From Paramacrobiotus metropolitanus (Eukaryota; Tardigrada; Eutardigrada; Parachela; Macrobiotidae): a DNA stretch of 64,000 bases. The notes below the pieces were generated by a model. The model made no database searches, was not told the origin of the DNA, and saw only the letters and a program-made list of their open reading frames with translations. The position numbers and the translations under genes were made by a program. The first letter of the stretch is position 1. Every line of letters starts with the position of its first letter. Below are positions 2,058 to 42,367 of the stretch, in pieces. The stretch covers positions 248,001 to 312,000 of the forward strand of contig NW_026570318.1 of the NCBI RefSeq assembly GCF_019649055.1, read 5' to 3'.

Positions 2058-2692
2058 ATGAACAACGTGACAGTGTTTGTGGCCTTTTCTTTATTGTCCT
2101 GTGTTTTGGCTGGAGTTCAGGTGGACACAATAACGAACGGGGACGGTAAGAATTCTCTGTTTTGTTCTCCACAATGATTATTTACTATATCCGATTCTGT
2201 GTTGTAGGAACAAATTTTCCCCAGACGGGACAAACGGTGACTGTCCATTATACCGGTACGTTCCCCTAACTTATGCATATGTAGAAATAAATAATTCATT
2301 ATAAGAATTTCAAGCTGATTGTAGTTGCTAACGTTTACTGCATTTTTGCTACGAGTACAGTACTAGAGCAAAATTAATTATATTTAGGGACGTTAACGGA
2401 CGGGACCAAATTTGACTCCTCGCGCGATCGAAATCAGCCATTCAGTTTTCACATCGGACAAGGCGAAGTCATTAAGGGTCAGTTAGGATTATATTTCTAC
2501 GGAATTTATTTTAGTATTTTGAACCGGCTCGTGTCTGCAGGTTGGGACGAGGGTGTTGCCCAGATGAGTTTAGGGCAGCGCGCTAAGCTGACCATTTCAT
2601 CGGATTATGGCTACGGACAAGCCGGCATTCCGGGCGTGATCCCACCGGATTCCACTTTGATTTTTGATGTGGAACTGCTCGGTATTCAGTAG
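2058..2692 (+). CDS. Secreted/ER FKBP-type peptidyl-prolyl cis-trans isomerase
   Basis: Four exons: 2058-2145, 2208-2255, 2388-2477 and 2541-2692. All introns are GT..AG and the phases agree. The product begins with a hydrophobic leader ([19 protein letters not shown]), so it should enter the secretory pathway, as FKBP2/FKBP14-type proteins do. One FKBP domain fills the rest. Visible landmarks are [16 protein letters not shown], the VIKGWDEG turn with the pocket tryptophan, DYGYG, and the C-terminal strand [11 protein letters not shown]. The binding-pocket residues Tyr, Phe-Asp, Trp and Tyr are all present, so it is probably active in proline isomerisation and protein folding. There is no obvious ER-retention tail (it ends in GIQ), so it may be secreted. 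A TATA-like tatttaag lies about 90 bp before the ATG. Confidence 0.93.
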
Positions 2693-4468: not shown

Positions 4469-7412
4469 TCAGTAAACTTGTTCTAGTTGCAAAAATCTAG
4501 CCAAACTGGCTACCAAAGAATTCCATTTAAATTGAATTTCGTTTAGAACATGGAGAACACTGATATTGGCGGCGGCCGCGCCGCTCGTTGGCAGGGAAGA
4601 AAGAGAAGAAAGAGTCGTAGAACTCCATGCTATGGATGACCTTGGATCGGTTACATTAAACACAGCTCGCCGTGTACTCGTCACAGCGTTCCTCACGGTG
4701 GTCGCCAAAGTAGTGGACGACATCATTGCTTTCGTTGCTGGCGCTGTCGAACGCGCTGTGGAAGTGGTGACCTTTGTTTTCATTTCCACAAGATTCTCAT
4801 TCGTCTTATTTCGTGGCGTAGTGGTATAGTTAGAGGAGGAGTTATTTCGGCATGAACTGATCAGTGGTGTATGGTCAGCAGGGAGATCGTTGGGAGAATT
4901 CCAAACGTTAGTGATCAACGGTCCCTAAAAAGATACCGTTGCATTTTAATGGAGTGATCCTTTTAATGTAACGACTGCGAAGTCTCACATTACCGATGTT
5001 ACTGATTGTCGTATACAGCGCGAAACAATCTGCGTGCCGTTTTCTTTGGTCACACTCGGCGAGGTGTTGCACGTGGTCAGTCCGACATCATTGACGTACG
5101 CCCATGTCGGCAGAATTGGGAATATCATAAGGAACGCTCGACATCTTTCACTGGTATCCGAAAGCTGAAGAAAGACATGTGCAAAATAACGCAAATTTAT
5201 CATGCTCATACTCGAATTGCAGAATGTGAATCATATTTGTGCAGTACCTGTTTAGCATATTCACACTCGAGAAACAACTCGTCGCCCTGCAACCATACAA
5301 ATTTGAACGCCATGATTTCAGTTTTATCCGGGCGGAAAACTTCCGAAGCGGCAATATACCCGATGGAGAATTGTTGTACGGGGCGGTCGCCGTCCTTCTT
5401 GATACGTGTAGTCGTAGTGATTGTCTTTGGCGACTGGGTTCAGTTCGGTTCCGTTGCGGATATGCCGCAGCAGCATCCGCCTACCTAATTTAATGGTCTT
5501 CGAAGCTCCGGGCCGCCAGGAAACCGATTATGAAAACTGTACCTGATACTTCCGCATCGAGGACGACGTCGGCAATGTGGATTGAACGTCGCGCCAGTCC
5601 CTACACGTATTATGTTGGTAGCACGAGAACGAACTTTTTCGATGGATTACTTACGGATTGAGTACAAGATGCAGGACATCGGGTCACTGCCACGAGATCC
5701 GTTACATTTGCCGGAGCGGTAAACGAATCCATATCTGTAAAAATTATGTTACTGTTAGGGAAACAAGGTCGATTATAACCATAACCGGAAACAAATACCT
5801 GGGCGGTCGGTGTATTGCAAGGTGAGAAAACCGGCATCGAATTGTCGGATATCTGATGAAATCACGAGCGATATTCCTGAGCTATCCAAATAATCTGTAA
5901 CAAGAAGAAATTTGACGCTGATAAACAATTCAATCGCAGTAAACAGCACCGGCACTGAGAAAACCGGTGTAAAAAAGTCCAAGCCGGCACAAGCCGTTGG
6001 TTGAATGATGCTTTACCGATGGGTAGATCGTTTTGATAATCGTTCTGCAGAAGAATATAGCGGTTATTCATCTCTGGATTGATGGGAATTCCCGCTTCTT
6101 CCGGAAGATAAAAGATCTGCAGTACGTTCAAACTATGTGTTATGTACTATTGTTTACGCTAAATGATTCTTACATCCCTGCCACGCCCTGCGACCGCCAG
6201 AACCATCGTACACTGGTCGCGAAGCATCACTCGATACTTTTCATTTTCCGCCACTGAGCAATCAAAATCCTTTGTGGGAAACGTATCGTTGACAAGTGGA
6301 CTGCAGATATAAGCAACGGATCGCTGAAGAATATTCTCATTTCCTTGTGTCAAAATCGGGACAATCTACCGAAATAATAATGTATGTATATTCAATATTT
6401 TTAAATTCAGGTTAAATGTTTTCTCACAGCCGTGGCATGATATTTCACCGCCAGGGATGGAAGTTTAATTAGGGCACAGTGTGATTTTTGGCCGATATTT
6501 GCCGGAATGGCTACCTTGAATGGAAACTTTGTGAAAATCGACCAACTCTTAAATAACAAAATCTACCTCATCAACCAACAGCCACCTGATGCTTAAAAAG
6601 CTACCTGATCGGCAGTTAAATCCAGGCCTCCGCTATTTGGATCAATGCGGACGCTGTCCGTTAAATTTTCATTGTACGGTTCTGCCAAGAGATTTACGGC
6701 TATGCGTTTTGCCGATGCCCAGCTAAAGGTATTGCCGTCAACGATACTGAGCGTCGTAGCGTTGGACATGTAGTGCAAATACGCAGTGTCGCCCTAAACA
6801 GCAAAGAACAAATGCATCTGTTAAATCGTTTTGCAAATAATAATTATAGTAATGCTTATAAGACTAGATCATTAATTTAAATTGATACTACAGTACAGTT
6901 AGTAGTTAAACTAATACAAGCAGGGAAAAGTTCACCGTTATGGATAAATCTTGACTGTCGCATGTTTCCAGTTCTCTCGTCAGCCGGACGGTGAAAAGGC
7001 TGGTGTTGCTGACTGTGGCATTCCAGTCTTGATGTTTATCTAACCGAACGATACCGTCTGATCCAATCCAATAATCCTATAAATAATACATAATAAAATT
7101 TAATAATACAGAAAAATGCCTACTTTGGCGATCGTTTTTTAAATTTTTTCGAAAATTAACCTTTGCTGAAACGTTGGTAACTGAAGTTGAGCAGGCAACA
7201 AAATCAATGGGAAGATCTTCATGTGGATGACTGATTCCCAAAGCAAACCAGTCAGGTGGTGTCGTGTTATACGATACAATCAGCTCGATATGCGATGTAT
7301 TATGTAGCAGTTGAATCTGCACTCCCGTATCAAAATTTGCCAAAGTGAAAGCAGTAATCCGTAAAATCCAATAATCCAAAAAAATGAATAAACTGACTAA
7401 TTTTATAAGCAT
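4469..7412 (-). CDS. DOMON / dopamine beta-hydroxylase-like (MOXD-type) monooxygenase homologue lacking copper ligands
   Basis: Thirteen exons: 7161-7412, 6936-7076, 6605-6793, 6428-6547, 6174-6365, 6017-6116, 5799-5894, 5655-5734, 5543-5600, 5360-5484, 5248-5286, 4994-5164 and 4469-4924. They sum to 2019 nt (672 aa), all in phase. A signal peptide starts at MLIKLVSLFIFLDYW. A DOMON domain follows (DYWIGSDGIVRLDKHQDW, then FTVRLTRELETCDSQD). The rest aligns with the two-lobed DBH/PHM core: VAIPANIGQKSHCALIKLP, YLPEEAGIPI, DSSGISLVISSDIRQFDAG, LLRHIRNGTELNP, GDELFLECEYAKQ and SDTSERC. The copper-binding positions are changed: HHM to QRS (~248-250), VHY to NDY (~323-325), HxH to TQS (~388-390) and EMC to ERC (~470-472). 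Catalysis by the known mechanism is therefore unlikely. A Ser/Thr-rich, probably glycosylated tail follows from about residue 522. Confidence 0.85.
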
Positions 7413-7889: not shown

Positions 7890-8393
7890 TTAGCCAAATC
7901 CGTTGCATTGGCATCCAGCCGGCTGCGGTCCGCAGTTACCGGCATTTCCCAAGTTTCCACCGAAACAAGCCCACCACGCTCCACAAGCAAACGTACAGGC
8001 CCAGTCTACAGAAGCAATTCTGTACAATATATCTAGCGTTTGTTTCGCTAATAAGGAAGTTTCAAATACTGTTTTGAAACCTTACCAAATCGACCGTTAG
8101 CATCGAACTGCGGCTTCACATCTGGCGCCACCGGCACGGAAACAACGCAGGAAACGGCCAACACTAGTAAAGGGCAACAACAACGCGGGCGTTCATTCTG
8201 GAGATTACGACTAAAAAAGCAGACCACTGTTAAAAAGGTTGAAAATTAAAATTAACTCAGATTTTATATGCTGACGAAAGATGTACTTACATATAACTTC
8301 TAGAAACAAAACAACTAAAACCGTGAAGCGAAAACGGGTTAGAAGTCAAGGAAGCGAGCAGTTCTATGAAATTTAAATTACAAATATATACAT
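7890..8393 (-). CDS. Small secreted cysteine-rich peptide (5' end uncertain)
   Basis: The last exon (7890-8005) encodes a cysteine-rich tail, DWACTFACGAWWACFGG...GNCGPQPAGCQC, ending in NGFG. It joins in phase to an exon ending at 8086, which encodes a hydrophobic leader (PLLVLAVSCVVSVPVAPD). The CxxxC...CxC spacing recalls CS-alpha/beta defensins, but the first cysteine of that pattern is missing and an extra one is present, so I do not call it a defensin. The start is a problem. The only ATG in the leader exon (8198) is out of frame and stops after ten codons. An upstream ATG at 8393 could join in phase (MYIF then NERPR...), but it lies almost at the expected transcription start. A frameshift in the leader is the other possibility. 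Confidence 0.5.
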
Positions 8394-9995: not shown

Positions 9996-11039
9996 TCACT
10001 GAACCAGCCGCATTATTCGCATTCGGGTATCGTTGGAGGCGGTCTCGCCCAGCCCCCATGACGGATATTTTGAGAGACGGCCCGACGACACTTTATTTCG
10101 CGGGATCTCTTTTCCACGACATAATCTCCTGAGAATTTTTCGAAACATGGGAAAGAACGTGACGTAGTATACGAATGGCATCAAATCCTTCATACAGTCA
10201 AATGACGTATACGCAATGGCCATCGTCACCCCCAGAAACCCGTTCCGCATTCCGAAGAAATAAATCAGTCTGGAGGCCGACTGACACAGGACATTGGTGG
10301 TGACCACCGCGGAGCCGGCCATTGCGCTGCGCATCACGCTTCTCACAAGATAATAATCGGTTTGTCCGGGATTCGTGCGCCGGTTATTCGCACGAATTTT
10401 GACCTGCAGCGCAATAATACACGTGTGACACTGCGGCAACGCGATTAGACCCAGAGTGGCAAAGAACTGGACGTTGTAAAATACGATCCACGCGTAGTCT
10501 CGCAGCACCAACTGACCAACTTCTCGGCAGCTGACCACTAGCACGGTATTCCCCAGAAATGCGAAAAAAACCAAATAGAATCCACATACGGTAAACCACA
10601 TTAACATAATGACAATAACGACGGAGCGTTTAGTGACCTTTTGCCGGTAGAATAATGGAAACTGCACGGAGATCCATCGATCAATGCTTATGAGCATCAC
10701 CAACATGTTAATTAAAGGAAGAAACGTCGTACGGAATCCAACGGCCACTTTTGTGATATAAGAATAGCGTAGTGTATAATCGATCACTCGGTTCATGGTG
10801 CCAATAAAACTCCCGGTGCTGCATAATAATTCCGCCGCTGACAAAGAAATGTGGAAGAGAAGAAAGGGTTCTTTCTTTTTCCAGCGAGAAAATACGCAGA
10901 GGTTAATGCAGTTCACGACGATGGTGAGAATATTTAGAGTTAAGTAATATACCGTTAATATTCGGTAGTCTCTGGAAATGGACCATGATAAGCAGACCGT
11001 GGCATTTGCCGAAATGCTAGATACATTAGTCAGATTCAT
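9996..11039 (-). CDS. Divergent rhodopsin-like GPCR, subfamily A, member 1 (intact, single exon)
   Basis: An uninterrupted 347-residue frame with seven hydrophobic segments. An N-glycosylated N-terminus (NLTNVSS, NATVC) precedes TM1 (ILTIVVNCINLCVF). TM2 carries HISLSAAELLC. TM3 ends in ISIDRWISVQFP, a DRW version of the DRY motif. Extracellular loop 2 has VVSCREVG. TM7 reads KDLMPFVYYVTFFP in place of NPxxY, followed by a basic helix 8 (FRKILRRLCRGK). It should be a plasma-membrane G-protein-coupled receptor; the ligand is unknown. Two paralogues in the window (20718-22138 and the broken 24805-28952) share the HKEPFL/KKEPFLLFHISLS and LPQCHTC motifs. This copy lacks the intron the 20718 gene has after ALQ. 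Confidence 0.9.
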   Translation of the reverse strand: MNLTNVSSISANATVCLSWSISRDYRILTVYYLTLNILTIVVNCINLCVFSRWKKKEPFLLFHISLSAAELLCSTGSFIGTMNRVIDYTLRYSYITKVAVGFRTTFLPLINMLVMLISIDRWISVQFPLFYRQKVTKRSVVIVIMLMWFTVCGFYLVFFAFLGNTVLVVSCREVGQLVLRDYAWIVFYNVQFFATLGLIALPQCHTCIIALQVKIRANNRRTNPGQTDYYLVRSVMRSAMAGSAVVTTNVLCQSASRLIYFFGMRNGFLGVTMAIAYTSFDCMKDLMPFVYYVTFFPMFRKILRRLCRGKEIPRNKVSSGRLSKYPSWGLGETASNDTRMRIMRLVQ

Positions 11040-18391: not shown

Positions 18392-19354
18392 TTACAAGCG
18401 TTTAATTAGAAAGGGAAATACGGCAACCGTCAAGTAATTGATCCAATAGCTGCTGATATCGACCCAGTACACATGCGCACTGTAATAAATTTCCATGGCT
18501 TTGTACGCATAAAACGGCGTCCACAGGCAACAGTACGTGATACCCAACCACATCACCACGTTTTTATCCATCCGCAATGGCTTACATCCAATGACGCATG
18601 ACTCGCTAACACGGCTAACGGGTGTCACACTGCCGCCGGCATCGGAAGTGGACATTTCCAAATTGACCAAATTCGTCACACTTGAAGCGTTGGCCGCTGC
18701 GTAGCGCTTTAATCGGTCGGAGTGAAACTTTCTAAATTTTAACAGTAAACATAAAAGAATGCTGATAACCGGCACGACCCCACCACACAGCAGATACACC
18801 GACCAATACGCGTCTTGGTAGTTCGTTTTGATGGTACACGACTGAATGTGAAGATGTCCATTAAGCCATGGCACCACCTGGTCCACTACGAATGCCGGGA
18901 GAAATATTAAATGTCCCCAAATTATTCCGAACACGGTCAGATTAATATCCGCTAATTTATTCATCTGCCAGTTTTCCGAACAGCACGACTGGACAGTGAG
19001 CACGGCGACGTAGAACGCGGTTATCGGCGTGGTGACCCAGTCGAAATACTGCCATATTAGGCACGTAACATCACCGAAAAGCCAAATATTGTAGCCGATT
19101 GTGTAGCTCCACAAACCAGGGACAGTTACGAACGCTACAATAAAATCAGCCACTTTCAGACCGCCGATGACTACGATCCCCGGTGTGTTTTGCCTCTGAT
19201 GGAAAATCACGTTAACTACATCAACAAGGTTTGCAACGGATGTGAAGATCCAAAATAAAATGGACCAGATTGTCCAAGCGATGGTCGAAGAACAGTGCAG
19301 CGTCTCCCATAACGTGGACTCGTTTGCTCTGTTATTCTGCACTGCGATAAGCAT
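18392..19354 (-). CDS. Divergent seven-transmembrane receptor, subfamily C, member 1
   Basis: A single-exon 320-residue frame with seven hydrophobic segments. Shared subfamily signatures are TVPGLWSYTIGYNIWLFGD, then VTCLIWQYFDWVTTPITAFY in TM3, PWLNGH with HIQSC in extracellular loop 2, and CCLWTPFYAYKAMEIYYSAH with VYWVDI in TM6/loop 3. TM7 is YWINYLTVAVFPFLIKRL, followed at once by the stop. There is no DRY motif (SENW at that place) and no NPxxY, so assignment to class A rests on topology and the conserved TM3 and loop-2 cysteines. It is a paralogue of the plus-strand genes at 39292 and 41324. Unlike the C3 copy, it reads SCCSENW in intracellular loop 2. Confidence 0.85.
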   Translation of the reverse strand: MLIAVQNNRANESTLWETLHCSSTIAWTIWSILFWIFTSVANLVDVVNVIFHQRQNTPGIVVIGGLKVADFIVAFVTVPGLWSYTIGYNIWLFGDVTCLIWQYFDWVTTPITAFYVAVLTVQSCCSENWQMNKLADINLTVFGIIWGHLIFLPAFVVDQVVPWLNGHLHIQSCTIKTNYQDAYWSVYLLCGGVVPVISILLCLLLKFRKFHSDRLKRYAAANASSVTNLVNLEMSTSDAGGSVTPVSRVSESCVIGCKPLRMDKNVVMWLGITYCCLWTPFYAYKAMEIYYSAHVYWVDISSYWINYLTVAVFPFLIKRL

Positions 19355-20717: not shown

Positions 20718-22138
20718 TCAGTTATTTGGCGGATAGTTCGGTGGACGAGCTAACAAGACAATGTTCTTCACAATCCTTTGGCGACGGCCATATATCAGCT
20801 CCAGCAGATTGTTGCGAAACTTCGGGAAGAAAGCCACGTAGCACACGAAGGGCATCAGATACTTGAGACAATCGAACGACGTGAACGCGATTGCCATCCC
20901 GACAGTCAACACTCCGCTGCGCATTCCGAAGAAGTAGATCAATCTCGCGGTGGACTGGCACACCACGTTGGTGATGACCACGGCGGAGCCGGCCATTGCG
21001 CTGCGAATGGCGCTGCGTACCAGCCGGCTGTCGTTGTCCCGGGTGTTTTGACGACGGTGGTGCGCCCGGCATTTCACCTAAAGCGGAATTTTATTTTCCA
21101 TATATTGTGTAATAGTTTTCTGTGTCGCTAATAACACATAATAATCTGTATAAGCATAAAACGCTTTCGAGGGCGAAAACATTTTCGATTAACACCGGCT
21201 TTAAATTAAAATCTCCTTAAGTGGGAAAACTGGAAAAACAATTTATGTTTAATTAAAAGAAGTTGAATAAAGTACAAATCACCGGAATACATTACTTGTT
21301 TTACTTGCTGACAATTCAGTTAATTTCTCTGACATATAGCAAAACACAAAAACTTTGGACCAGTTCAATTACTAGTAATCGTTGTATGTGGATTCGAATT
21401 TCAAACGATTTCAGTAATATTTTCAAGAACGGCTGAAATCTGTTTGAATTCTTCGTCTCTGATTTTTACCTGCAGTGCAATTGCGCACGTATGGCACTGC
21501 GGCAACGCGATCAGTACCAAGGTCGAGAAGAACTGGATATTGTAGAAGATAATCCACGCGGGATCCTTCAGTACAAACTGCCCCACTTCCCGGCACGTAA
21601 CCACCAAAACCGAGCTACCCATGAAGGCGAAGAAGATGACGTAAAATCCACAAGTTCCTGTCCACACCAAATTAATGGTCAGCAGAATGACCCGGCGTTT
21701 CACCTTGCGCCGATAGAACAGCGGGAACTGCACGGAAATCCATCGGTCCACACTGATTAGCATCACAAGGATATTGATCAACGGCAGAAATGTGGTCCGG
21801 AAGCCGATACCGATTTTGCTGAGCAGGGCGTAGCGTAGCGTGTAGTCGAAGGCGCGGTTGACATAGCCGACGAAACTCGTGGTGCTGCATAAGAGTTCAG
21901 CGAAGGACAAGGAGATGTGGAAGAGGAGGAAGGGTTCTTTCCGCTTCCACCGGGCGAACACACTCAGATTGATGCAGCTGGCGATCATGGTCAGGATGTT
22001 TAGCGCTAACACGTGGACCGTTAGGATACGGTAGTCTCGGGATACTCCCCAGGATAGGCATATGGTTGTGTTGGTCGTGATGTTGGAGGCACGTGTTAGG
22101 TTAGCTGAAAACAGCGGTATAGAGGTGTTTGCCCGCAT
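20718..22138 (-). CDS. Divergent rhodopsin-like GPCR, subfamily A, member 2 (two exons)
   Basis: Exon 1 is 21470-22138 (223 codons, ending ...CHTCAIALQ) and exon 2 is 20718-21077 (starting VKCRAHHRRQNTR). A 392-bp GT..AG intron in phase 0 separates them, giving 342 residues. Features are the glycosylated N-terminus (SNITTNTTIC), SVDRWISVQFP at the end of TM3, ECL2 VVTCREVG, LIALPQCHTC at the end of TM5 and KYLMPFVCYVAFFP in TM7. The sequence is closest to the 9996-11039 gene, which has no intron at this point. The bases caggt at the splice junction are present uninterrupted in that gene. The ligand is unknown. Confidence 0.88.
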
Positions 22139-39291: not shown

Positions 39292-40299
39292 ATGTTCTCC
39301 CCTTTAGATGAAATAAATTACTCCAACCATTGCGACGCGTTGCACAATGCGACTGTTCAACCGTCCATTGCGGATGTTTTCCGGTCACCGGGAAATTTAT
39401 TATGGCTCATCGGAGCGGTACTCTTCTGGATCTTTGGCTCGTGTTACAATGCCCATGAAATTGTGGTGTTTGTTCGACGCAAGGCCCAGTATCGGCCGGG
39501 TGACGTGCTTATCTTCGCCCTGACGTTGGTACACTTTGTGTCTTCTGTAGTTACGATCCCTGGTTTATTGGGCTATACAGTGTCTTATAATGTCTGGATA
39601 TTCGGCGACGCCAGTTGCATTATATGGCAATATTTCGACTGGATTTCTACTCCGATCATTGCGCTACTTATAGCCGCAATCCATCTACAATTCGTCGTTC
39701 AATCATTTCTTCGGAATATTCGTCACCCGTTCATACAAGAAATTGTTGTTGTTTTCCTTATAATAATCGGCAGCAATTTACTATTCTTCCCCGCTTACAT
39801 TAGAAACCAAAATCTGTCTCGAATGAATGGTTTTCCGATACCAGCGTGTTCAATGCGCACCTATCCAGATATTGCCGGTTGGTCGGGATATTTTCTTGTC
39901 GGTGGCTATTTTCCGATGCTGATCATTGTCGTGTGTGATGCGATTGTTTTGGACAACATACTGCGTCAACGTCGACATGCTGTTTCCCAGCTGAATGGCC
40001 GTCCCAGTGCCATGGATCTCGTAACACTGGATACGTCGCCATCTAATCCGCCTTTTTGCTCGTCGGTTGTGTCGGTTAATGGGGAATGTATGGAATCCCA
40101 CAATTCAAGAAATACTAGCAGACGGATGCGAGGAGTGACGTGGCTGGGAGCTGCGTATCTGTTATTGTGGCTGCCTTATCTGGTGTTCAGCACACTGGAG
40201 CTGTGTCTCAATGTTCATGCCTACTGGCCTGATGTGTTGACGTACTGGCTGAGCTATCTGTGCTCAGTGATTCTGCCGAATGCGATGAAAAAATTCTAA
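39292..40299 (+). CDS. Divergent seven-transmembrane receptor, subfamily C, member 2
   Basis: A single-exon 335-residue protein. Subfamily signatures are TIPGLLGYTVSYNVWIFGD, SCIIWQYFDWISTPIIALL in TM3, PACSMRTYPDIAGW in extracellular loop 2, LLLWLPYLVFSTLELCLNVH in TM6/loop 3 and YWLSYLCSVILPNAMKKF in TM7. The stop follows MKKF immediately, so there is no cytoplasmic tail. The DRY position reads FVVQSFLRN. It lies 1 kb upstream of member 3 in the same orientation, a tandem pair. Ligand and coupling are unknown. Confidence 0.88.
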   Translation: MFSPLDEINYSNHCDALHNATVQPSIADVFRSPGNLLWLIGAVLFWIFGSCYNAHEIVVFVRRKAQYRPGDVLIFALTLVHFVSSVVTIPGLLGYTVSYNVWIFGDASCIIWQYFDWISTPIIALLIAAIHLQFVVQSFLRNIRHPFIQEIVVVFLIIIGSNLLFFPAYIRNQNLSRMNGFPIPACSMRTYPDIAGWSGYFLVGGYFPMLIIVVCDAIVLDNILRQRRHAVSQLNGRPSAMDLVTLDTSPSNPPFCSSVVSVNGECMESHNSRNTSRRMRGVTWLGAAYLLLWLPYLVFSTLELCLNVHAYWPDVLTYWLSYLCSVILPNAMKKF

Positions 40300-41323: not shown

Positions 41324-42367
41324 ATGGCAAAGATGCAAATGCCACTGAATAATTCCGTCAACGGATCAGACCCGGGAAATATTTTCCAGTCGCCAATAAA
41401 CATAATGTGGATAGTCTGGTCGTGTATATTCTGGATTGTAAGCACCTTTCTGAACATCCATGATTTTTGGCGCTTGTTGCGGATCCGCAAAAAATGGATT
41501 CCGGGGTCGGTTTTTCTAGTTGGTCTGAGTTTGACTGATTTCTTAGTAGCACTGTTAACCGTCCCAGGATTGATGGGCTACTGTATCGCATATAACTTCT
41601 GGGCGTTCGGCGATCTAAGCTGTTTTATCTGGCAGTATTTTGATTGGGTTACCAACCCGATGACTGCGTACTTCATCGCGTGCATACATGTGTACTGCGT
41701 CGTGCAAAGGTGGTACGGCACCCAACTCCGACGACATGCGGAAATTATAATAACGGTTTTCGCTTTACTCTGGGCAGATTTGTTATTCTTACCGGCATAT
41801 TTAACGGAGCATATTTTACCCTGGCTAACCGGACATAGTCACGTGTTGTCGTGCAGCATCCAGACATACCCAACGATATGGCCATGGGCAGCATTCCTTT
41901 GGCTAGGTGCATATTTGCCACTTGGTATAATTTCTGTCTGCGACGGAATTATTCTTTGTGGTATGGTTAAAAGAGGGAAAGTCCAGCGGTATTCGCCGCA
42001 GATGGCGAGAGGCACTTCAAGTGGAATTAATTTAGCGGACTTCGATAGCACCAACATCAGTTCGGATGCGCTCGGTCGACAAGTATCCACAATCGACGCA
42101 ATCGATCAGCCGAGAAAAACGGAGATAGGGTGCATTGAACCGGCGAGCAAACGATGGCTGGTCCAACCTGTCGCCGCCGCAAACAGAATGAACGAACGCA
42201 CCGTGTTAATTAGCGGTGTCTTATTCTGTTGTCTTTGGACACCGTTCTACATTTACAAGGGAATGGAAATCTACTGCAACGCACATATATACTGGGTAGA
42301 CGTCGGTGTCTATTGGCTTAACTATCTTTCTGTCCTGATTTTTCCTATCCTTTTCAAGCGCTTCTAG
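41324..42367 (+). CDS. Divergent seven-transmembrane receptor, subfamily C, member 3
   Basis: A single-exon 347-residue protein with an N-terminal NNSVNGSD and a glycosylation site. Signatures are TVPGLMGYCIAYNFWAFGD, SCFIWQYFDWVTNPMTAYF in TM3, VVQRWYG at the DRY position, PWLTGHSHVLSCSIQTYP in loop 2 and CCLWTPFYIYKGMEIYCNAH in TM6/loop 3. TM7 is YWLNYLSVLIFPILFKRF, directly followed by the stop. ICL3 carries GINLADFDST, shared with member 1 (TNLVNLEMST) and with the remnant at ~45.47 kb. I start at 41324; the second in-frame Met at 41333 is an alternative. Confidence 0.88.
   Translation: MAKMQMPLNNSVNGSDPGNIFQSPINIMWIVWSCIFWIVSTFLNIHDFWRLLRIRKKWIPGSVFLVGLSLTDFLVALLTVPGLMGYCIAYNFWAFGDLSCFIWQYFDWVTNPMTAYFIACIHVYCVVQRWYGTQLRRHAEIIITVFALLWADLLFLPAYLTEHILPWLTGHSHVLSCSIQTYPTIWPWAAFLWLGAYLPLGIISVCDGIILCGMVKRGKVQRYSPQMARGTSSGINLADFDSTNISSDALGRQVSTIDAIDQPRKTEIGCIEPASKRWLVQPVAAANRMNERTVLISGVLFCCLWTPFYIYKGMEIYCNAHIYWVDVGVYWLNYLSVLIFPILFKRF

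Follow-up and report, generated by a model that had tools for sequence, protein, structure and literature searches.

The window, by which we mean the whole stretch of 64,000 nucleotides analysed here, carries on its minus strand (7412-4469) a gene of 13 exons. Its 12 GT-AG introns are 54-142 bp long and in phase, and the coding sequence specifies 661 amino acids with no internal stop. The original prediction had placed a 13-exon homologue of the MOXD/DBH-type monooxygenases at this locus. Our model has the same span, the same exon number and an intact frame; since the prediction came without exon coordinates, this agreement concerns the span and the exon count and not the individual exons. The model is as follows:

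4469-7412, minus strand: whole coding sequence of a ligand-lost DOMON/Cu2-monooxygenase-like gene (gene model, Pfam, exon pattern of the paralogues)
7161-7412, minus strand: exon 1, first part of DOMON preceded by a hydrophobic stretch that is likely a signal peptide, from the first in-frame ATG of the open frame
6936-7076, minus strand: exon 2, remaining DOMON core with LDKHQDW and TCDSQD (alignment, Pfam)
6605-6793, minus strand: exon 3, last part of DOMON, followed by the linker (gene model)
6428-6514, minus strand: exon 4 (87 nt), start of the CuH lobe (87-nt exon in 8/10 paralogue models; Pfam gain)
6174-6365, minus strand: exon 5, CuH lobe, Q237 and R238 at the HH pair (codons 6326-6321; alignments)
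6017-6116, minus strand: exon 6, CuH lobe, D313 at the VHY histidine (codon 6041-6039; alignments)
5799-5894, minus strand: exon 7 (96 nt), where the two lobes join (96-nt exon in 7/10 paralogue models)
5655-5734, minus strand: exon 8, start of the CuM lobe with RCPASCTQS (paralogue comparison, gene model)
5543-5600, minus strand: exon 9, D394 (5558-5556) and E396 (5552-5550) at the HxH pair (alignments)
5360-5484, minus strand: exon 10 (125 nt), CuM lobe (125-nt exon in 7/10 paralogue models; Pfam gain)
5248-5286, minus strand: exon 11 (39 nt), CuM lobe, shortened loop before the Met site (paralogues mostly 60 nt)
4994-5164, minus strand: exon 12, R460 at the Met ligand (codon 5146-5144; alignments)
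4469-4924, minus strand: exon 13, C-terminal end (TPLISSC), Ser/Thr-rich tail and stop codon 4471-4469 (gene model)

All three domains of the family passed their Pfam cut-offs in the encoded protein: DOMON with 41.7 bits, Cu2_monooxygen with 67.0 bits (cut-off 30 bits) and Cu2_monoox_C with 49.6 bits (cut-off 23 bits). The DOMON domain and the two-lobed copper type II monooxygenase scaffold are thus kept, as had been proposed. Two boundaries of an earlier model, a start of exon 4 at 6547 and an intron of 40 bp separating exon 10 from exon 11, were rejected by the exon lengths of the paralogues, most of which have exons of 177, ~160, ~180, 87, ~190, 100, 96, 74-80, 55-58, 125, 60 and 99 nt; one paralogue, C151, lacks the 87-nt, 96-nt and 125-nt exons. 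With the earlier boundaries every Pfam score was lower (Cu2_monooxygen 62.2, Cu2_monoox_C 37.9 and DOMON 41.6 bits). Because the seed profile already held both corrections, the exon lengths of the window gene do not count as independent evidence, while the gain in Pfam score does.

By eye, the N-terminus of the protein resembles a signal peptide, and 18 possible N-glycosylation sequons were counted. The last exon encodes 151 amino acids, the first ~30 of which are similar, also by eye, to the C-terminal end of other family members. Serine and threonine make up 29.8% of this segment vs 16.3% of the remaining protein, in agreement with the Ser/Thr-rich tail described earlier.

Elsewhere in the window, five of the eight open reading frames scanned (15 were listed) match the rhodopsin-type seven-transmembrane receptors in a single frame, and make a loose cluster. 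A spliced gene and a short frame were also found:

9996-11039, minus strand: open reading frame matching 7tm_1 (Pfam)
18392-19354, minus strand: open reading frame matching 7tm_1 (Pfam)
21401-22138, minus strand: open reading frame matching 7tm_1 (Pfam)
39292-40299, plus strand: open reading frame matching 7tm_1 (Pfam)
41324-42367, plus strand: open reading frame matching 7tm_1 (Pfam)
2058-2692, plus strand: spliced gene for an FKBP-type prolyl isomerase (FKBP_C, 128 bits, hand-joined protein); a signal peptide is likely
7893-8081, minus strand: short Cys- and Gly-rich frame ending in DWACTFACGAWWACFGGNLGNAGNCGPQPAGCQCNGFG, just upstream of the monooxygenase-like gene; it may be part of a gene for a small secreted peptide

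Copper-ligand sites and retained scaffold

The ligand positions were located by aligning the window protein with human DBH (4zel, in an alignment that spans five of the six), a family profile with DBH and PHM, and the paralogues with one another. Searched against the PDB, the window protein, in its earlier-boundary version, had human DBH 4zel as its sole match at E <=10 (E 3.8e-27). The ten-row family profile matched DBH at E 1.8e-116 and 13 PHM sequences (best E about 1.9e-22), and it places all six ligand columns. For PHM, we take the ligands of the CuM site to be H242, H244 and M314. Its CuH ligands are H107, H108 and H172 (PMC6123673), and the copper ligands of DBH are His262, His263, His333, His412, His414 and Met487 (PMC4846438).

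All six positions are replaced in the window protein. Where an active enzyme has three histidines at CuH, it has Q237, R238 and D313, and where an active enzyme has two histidines and a methionine at CuM, it has D394, E396 and R460. The codons at these sites are CAG, CGA, GAT, GAT, GAA and AGA, and by hand count at least nine nucleotide changes lead to them from codons for His and Met. The loss of every copper ligand, the central claim of the original prediction, was therefore upheld (0/6 left), and the sequence-based alignment with PHM and DBH placed no intact His or Met at the copper sites. The alignments also give Q and R for the HH pair, D for the VHY histidine and, from the profile and the paralogues, R for the methionine. 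The T and S once assigned to the HxH pair had to be corrected: VLDAEVSGR of the window protein aligns with QLHTHLTGR of DBH, which gives D394 and E396.

If the gene model were an artefact, the true ligands would lie in other exons or in another reading. Two boundaries of the earlier model were indeed wrong, and the gene is known from genomic sequence alone. However, the exons that bear the sites (5, 6, 9 and 12) are identical in both models, and their alignment runs through the sites with conserved residues on either side; we find such an artefact scarcely credible.

The rest of the scaffold was compared over the 61 columns that are invariant across nine ligand-intact paralogues of the same genome, six of which are the ligands and 55 are others. 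The window gene keeps 0/6 ligands, 44/55 other invariants and 10/10 conserved cysteines. The difference between ligands and other invariants has a Fisher p of 2.2e-4, which is to be read as a contrast and not as an unbiased test, because the gene was picked for having lost its ligands and the columns were defined on genes picked as intact. Glycine accounts for five of the 11 invariants lost (three at gapped positions); the others are Tyr and Pro, twice each, a single Trp and a single Asp. In the DOMON domain of DBH, six aspartates lie in or next to a putative metal site for group-1/2 ions (PMC4846438). By alignment and spacing, these residues (D99, D114, D126, D130, D155 and D158) were matched to D41, D60, D72, D76, D99 and D102 of the window protein, all of them invariant over ten aligned rows including the window. 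The six aspartates of the putative DOMON site thus appear to be retained.

These features bear on the idea that the protein acts as an inactive partner, forming mixed oligomers with ligand-intact paralogues and tuning their stability, secretion or activity. Nine such paralogues lie in the same genome, all ten core cysteines are kept in the window protein, and DBH makes disulfide-linked dimers (PMC4846438). Nevertheless, the C-terminal dimerisation helices of the DBH type could not be recognised by eye in the window protein, which has one Cys in that stretch. We consider this role unlikely.

Ligand-lost relatives in the genome

A whole-genome search by Pfam family and by protein (169.8 Mb, 533 contigs) led to 19 stretches that were examined. 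They gave 13 full three-domain models, including the window gene, and further members may exist. Nine models (C40, C112, C19a-c, C6a-b, C63 and C151) have HHHHHM at the six ligand positions, and the other four have lost three to six ligands:

window gene: QRDDER (6/6 lost), 10/10 Cys, 44/55 other invariants
C45a: QSNTNA (6/6 lost; alignment at HxH ambiguous, with a His one column off), 9/10 Cys, 36/55 other invariants
C77: RQQNHS (5/6 lost), 10/10 Cys, 47/55 other invariants
C36: RQHHHT (3/6 lost), 10/10 Cys, 53/55 other invariants

An Arg at the Met site of C77 had come from models with retained introns or spurious exons; the refined model has Ser. C36 (L022, G000:C36:874500-882000) is without the HH pair and the Met but retains the other three ligands. 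It is the least diverged among the four ligand-lost genes and therefore a good case for timing. In C45a, two of the five DOMON aspartate columns checked are replaced, and C63 has one replaced, in a poorly modelled exon.

Several stretches stand outside the 13 models. C64 and C70 are PHM-like by eye, C45b is partial, and only DOMON was recovered in C17, in C114 and in C6 near 2,387,000. On C45, two copies of a divergent ligand-lost gene lie ~68 kb apart (L024 and L025, G000:C45:940000-946500 and 1010000-1016500); the model of the second holds the C-terminal lobe only and is nearly identical there to the first. C14 holds a partial copy of C40 (L021, G000:C14:1345500-1351500), which matches it at 69-74% identity in three segments of the copper lobes. 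In a further C6 copy (L026, G000:C6:2376000-2382500), part of the CuH lobe is inverted onto the opposite strand and the ligand motifs are kept. This inversion replaces our former description of the copy by a stop and lost exons; the model is unreliable between the breakpoints, and the inversion may be a misassembly. DOMON exons several kb away, in L027, may belong to the same copy.

The best tree of the 13 models has four changes of ligand state, at least two of which are forced by well-supported branches. The four ligand-lost genes came together on one branch in 0/200 bootstrap trees, and ligand loss showed no clustering on the trees beyond that of shuffled labels (500/500 shuffles as low). 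C36 groups with the intact C6a (support 93/92). The deep branches are weakly supported, and the exact position of the window gene is not fixed by the tree; its terminal branch (2.22) is the second longest among the 13, after that of C45a. Judged from alignments and trees, ligand loss has recurred within the family. Since three relatives of the window gene have also lost some or all of their ligands, it seems that copies in this enzyme family were repurposed more than once.

The relatives also inform the question of whether the window protein still holds a metal. Carboxylates occupy three of its six ligand positions, and D313, D394 and E396 might coordinate a different cation (calcium, manganese or iron, for example). 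However, the Arg gained at each former site would be expected to repel a cation, and the acidic residues are absent at these sites in C77, C36 and C45a. A metalloprotein of this kind is, in our judgement, improbable.

Constraint versus decay

For C36, a codon model over 463 codons gave a branch omega of 0.24 vs 0.105 elsewhere. Both omega = 1 (2dlnL 17.7) and one common omega (2dlnL 12.9) were rejected, so C36 is constrained, if more weakly than its relatives are.

For the window branch, the dN/dS comparison over 434 codons rejected omega = 1 on two topologies (2dlnL 27.6 and 30.7), at saturated dS. An omega of its own was not significantly better than a common omega on either tree (2dlnL 1.8). 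These fits used a single start each, and several branch lengths reached the bound of 100. Given the saturated branch lengths, the bound and the single start, we claim no omega value for the window gene, which was compared with paralogues at saturated dS.

How readily could neutral drift yield such a gene? Among 400 copies simulated at 0.05 substitutions per site, 3.5% were stop-free, and 1/20,000 had all six ligands changed; at 0.1 substitutions per site, 0/400 were stop-free and 4/20,000 had six ligands changed. In the simulation, drift sufficient to change six ligands thus leaves almost no stop-free copies. The broken copy in the family, the inverted C6 copy (if it is not a misassembly), keeps its ligand motifs, the reverse of the pattern in the window gene.

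A dying gene, whose function was lost so recently that the frame is still unbroken, would suit the long branch of the window gene and its 11/55 other invariants lost. It is countered by the simulated drift, by the at least nine nucleotide changes needed at the ligand codons, by the rejection of omega = 1 for the window branch (with dS saturated) and by the ligand motifs retained in the inverted C6 copy. We rate it a poor prospect. The broken frame, stops and lost exons of a pseudogene were not found in the window gene. It has instead lost its catalytic residues with the fold family and the frame kept, as expected of a pseudoenzyme. The earlier judgement that this is not simple decay is therefore supported, by the intact frame and splice sites, 10/10 cysteines, 44/55 invariants vs 0/6 ligands and the rejection of omega = 1. 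Constraint has been relaxed as well as shifted, given the long end branch and the loss of 11/55 other invariants.

A probable copper-free scaffold and its known counterparts

The best explanation, to which we give a probability of roughly two in three, is that the gene encodes a secreted, disulfide-stabilised and probably N-glycosylated copper-free pseudoenzyme of the DBH/MOXD type, retained as a binding or partner scaffold. Its fold family, the loss of six ligands, the retention of structural residues and the recurrence of loss are read from the sequence comparisons; for the window protein itself, we infer secretion, absence of copper and a binding or partner role. Regarding secretion, a DBH-like glycoprotein entry carries the tag BV898, which we take to denote Hypsibius exemplaris. 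The entry is listed among tardigrade glycoproteins in a table, where it is named as a DBH-like monooxygenase (PMC12167791), so a member of the family can be secretory.

On this explanation, the gene would descend from a DOMON-containing copper monooxygenase of the DBH/MOXD type. With the copper-holding residues gone from both canonical sites, the protein would not be expected to hydroxylate. The gene has most likely been retained because the scaffold itself works, as a binding or partner protein that would act through its DOMON domain and the surface that both lobes offer. In PHM, the mutants H107A, H108A and H172A are each inactive, yet crystal structures of them were obtained (PMC6123673). 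A role for the DOMON domain could not be claimed for all four ligand-lost genes, because C45a has lost DOMON aspartates.

The original prediction had proposed selection for a non-enzymatic role, such as binding or decoy. The non-enzymatic role is plausible; the decoy has been weakened. A decoy would bind the old substrate without converting it, which the kept two-lobed scaffold might allow. PHM, however, needs its copper to bind substrate, and mutants of its CuH site do not bind it (PMC6123673). This requirement favours a surface or DOMON role over a simple substrate decoy, which we regard as very unlikely.

A salt bridge may have taken the metal's place at both former copper sites of the window protein, as suggested by the one Arg and one or two acidic residues at each (QRD and DER). 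This would be a guess for the window gene alone, since C77, C36 and C45a do not show the Arg-acid pattern. A broader reading is tentative and, in our view, doubtful: DOMON/copper monooxygenases would repeatedly have become maintained copper-free scaffolds, and in the window protein the copper sites would be Arg-carboxylate locks, the DOMON ion site would be kept and DOMON would be the working part.

Among known proteins, human DBH (PDB 4zel) shares with the window protein the order DOMON-CuH-CuM, the conserved cysteines and the putative cluster of DOMON aspartates. The window protein differs from it in lacking the six copper ligands and, by eye, recognisable dimerisation helices, and in having the Ser/Thr-rich tail. 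PHM shares the two-lobed core, which is what the family profile matches in it; unlike the window protein, it keeps all native ligands, and the match covers the core only, without DOMON. The ligand-intact paralogues are 25-33% identical to the window protein, with the same ten cysteines and, except in C151, similar lengths of most exons, but HH, H, HxH and M are all present in them and all missing from the window gene. C77, C36 and C45a resemble the window gene in having lost ligands and retained cysteines (10, 10 and 9 of 10), but have other replacements and form no single clade with it.

Metal-ligand loss in folded enzyme families is a known kind of event. The nearest case found is mammalian MOXD2, a DBH-like gene that has suffered loss-of-function mutations in several lineages (PMC4125168), whereas the window gene has an intact frame and replaced ligands. 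In the passages of the MOXD2 paper (PMC4125168) returned by a text search for terms, nothing concerned copper sites. Pseudoenzymes are known, and in the open-access literature (subscription papers and preprints lying outside), among the best 20 matches listed for broad queries, we found no paper on ligand-lost homologues of DBH, PHM or MOXD and no pseudoenzyme described for this family. The intact, half-lost and fully lost paralogues in one animal genome offer a natural series on the non-catalytic roles of the DOMON-monooxygenase scaffold.
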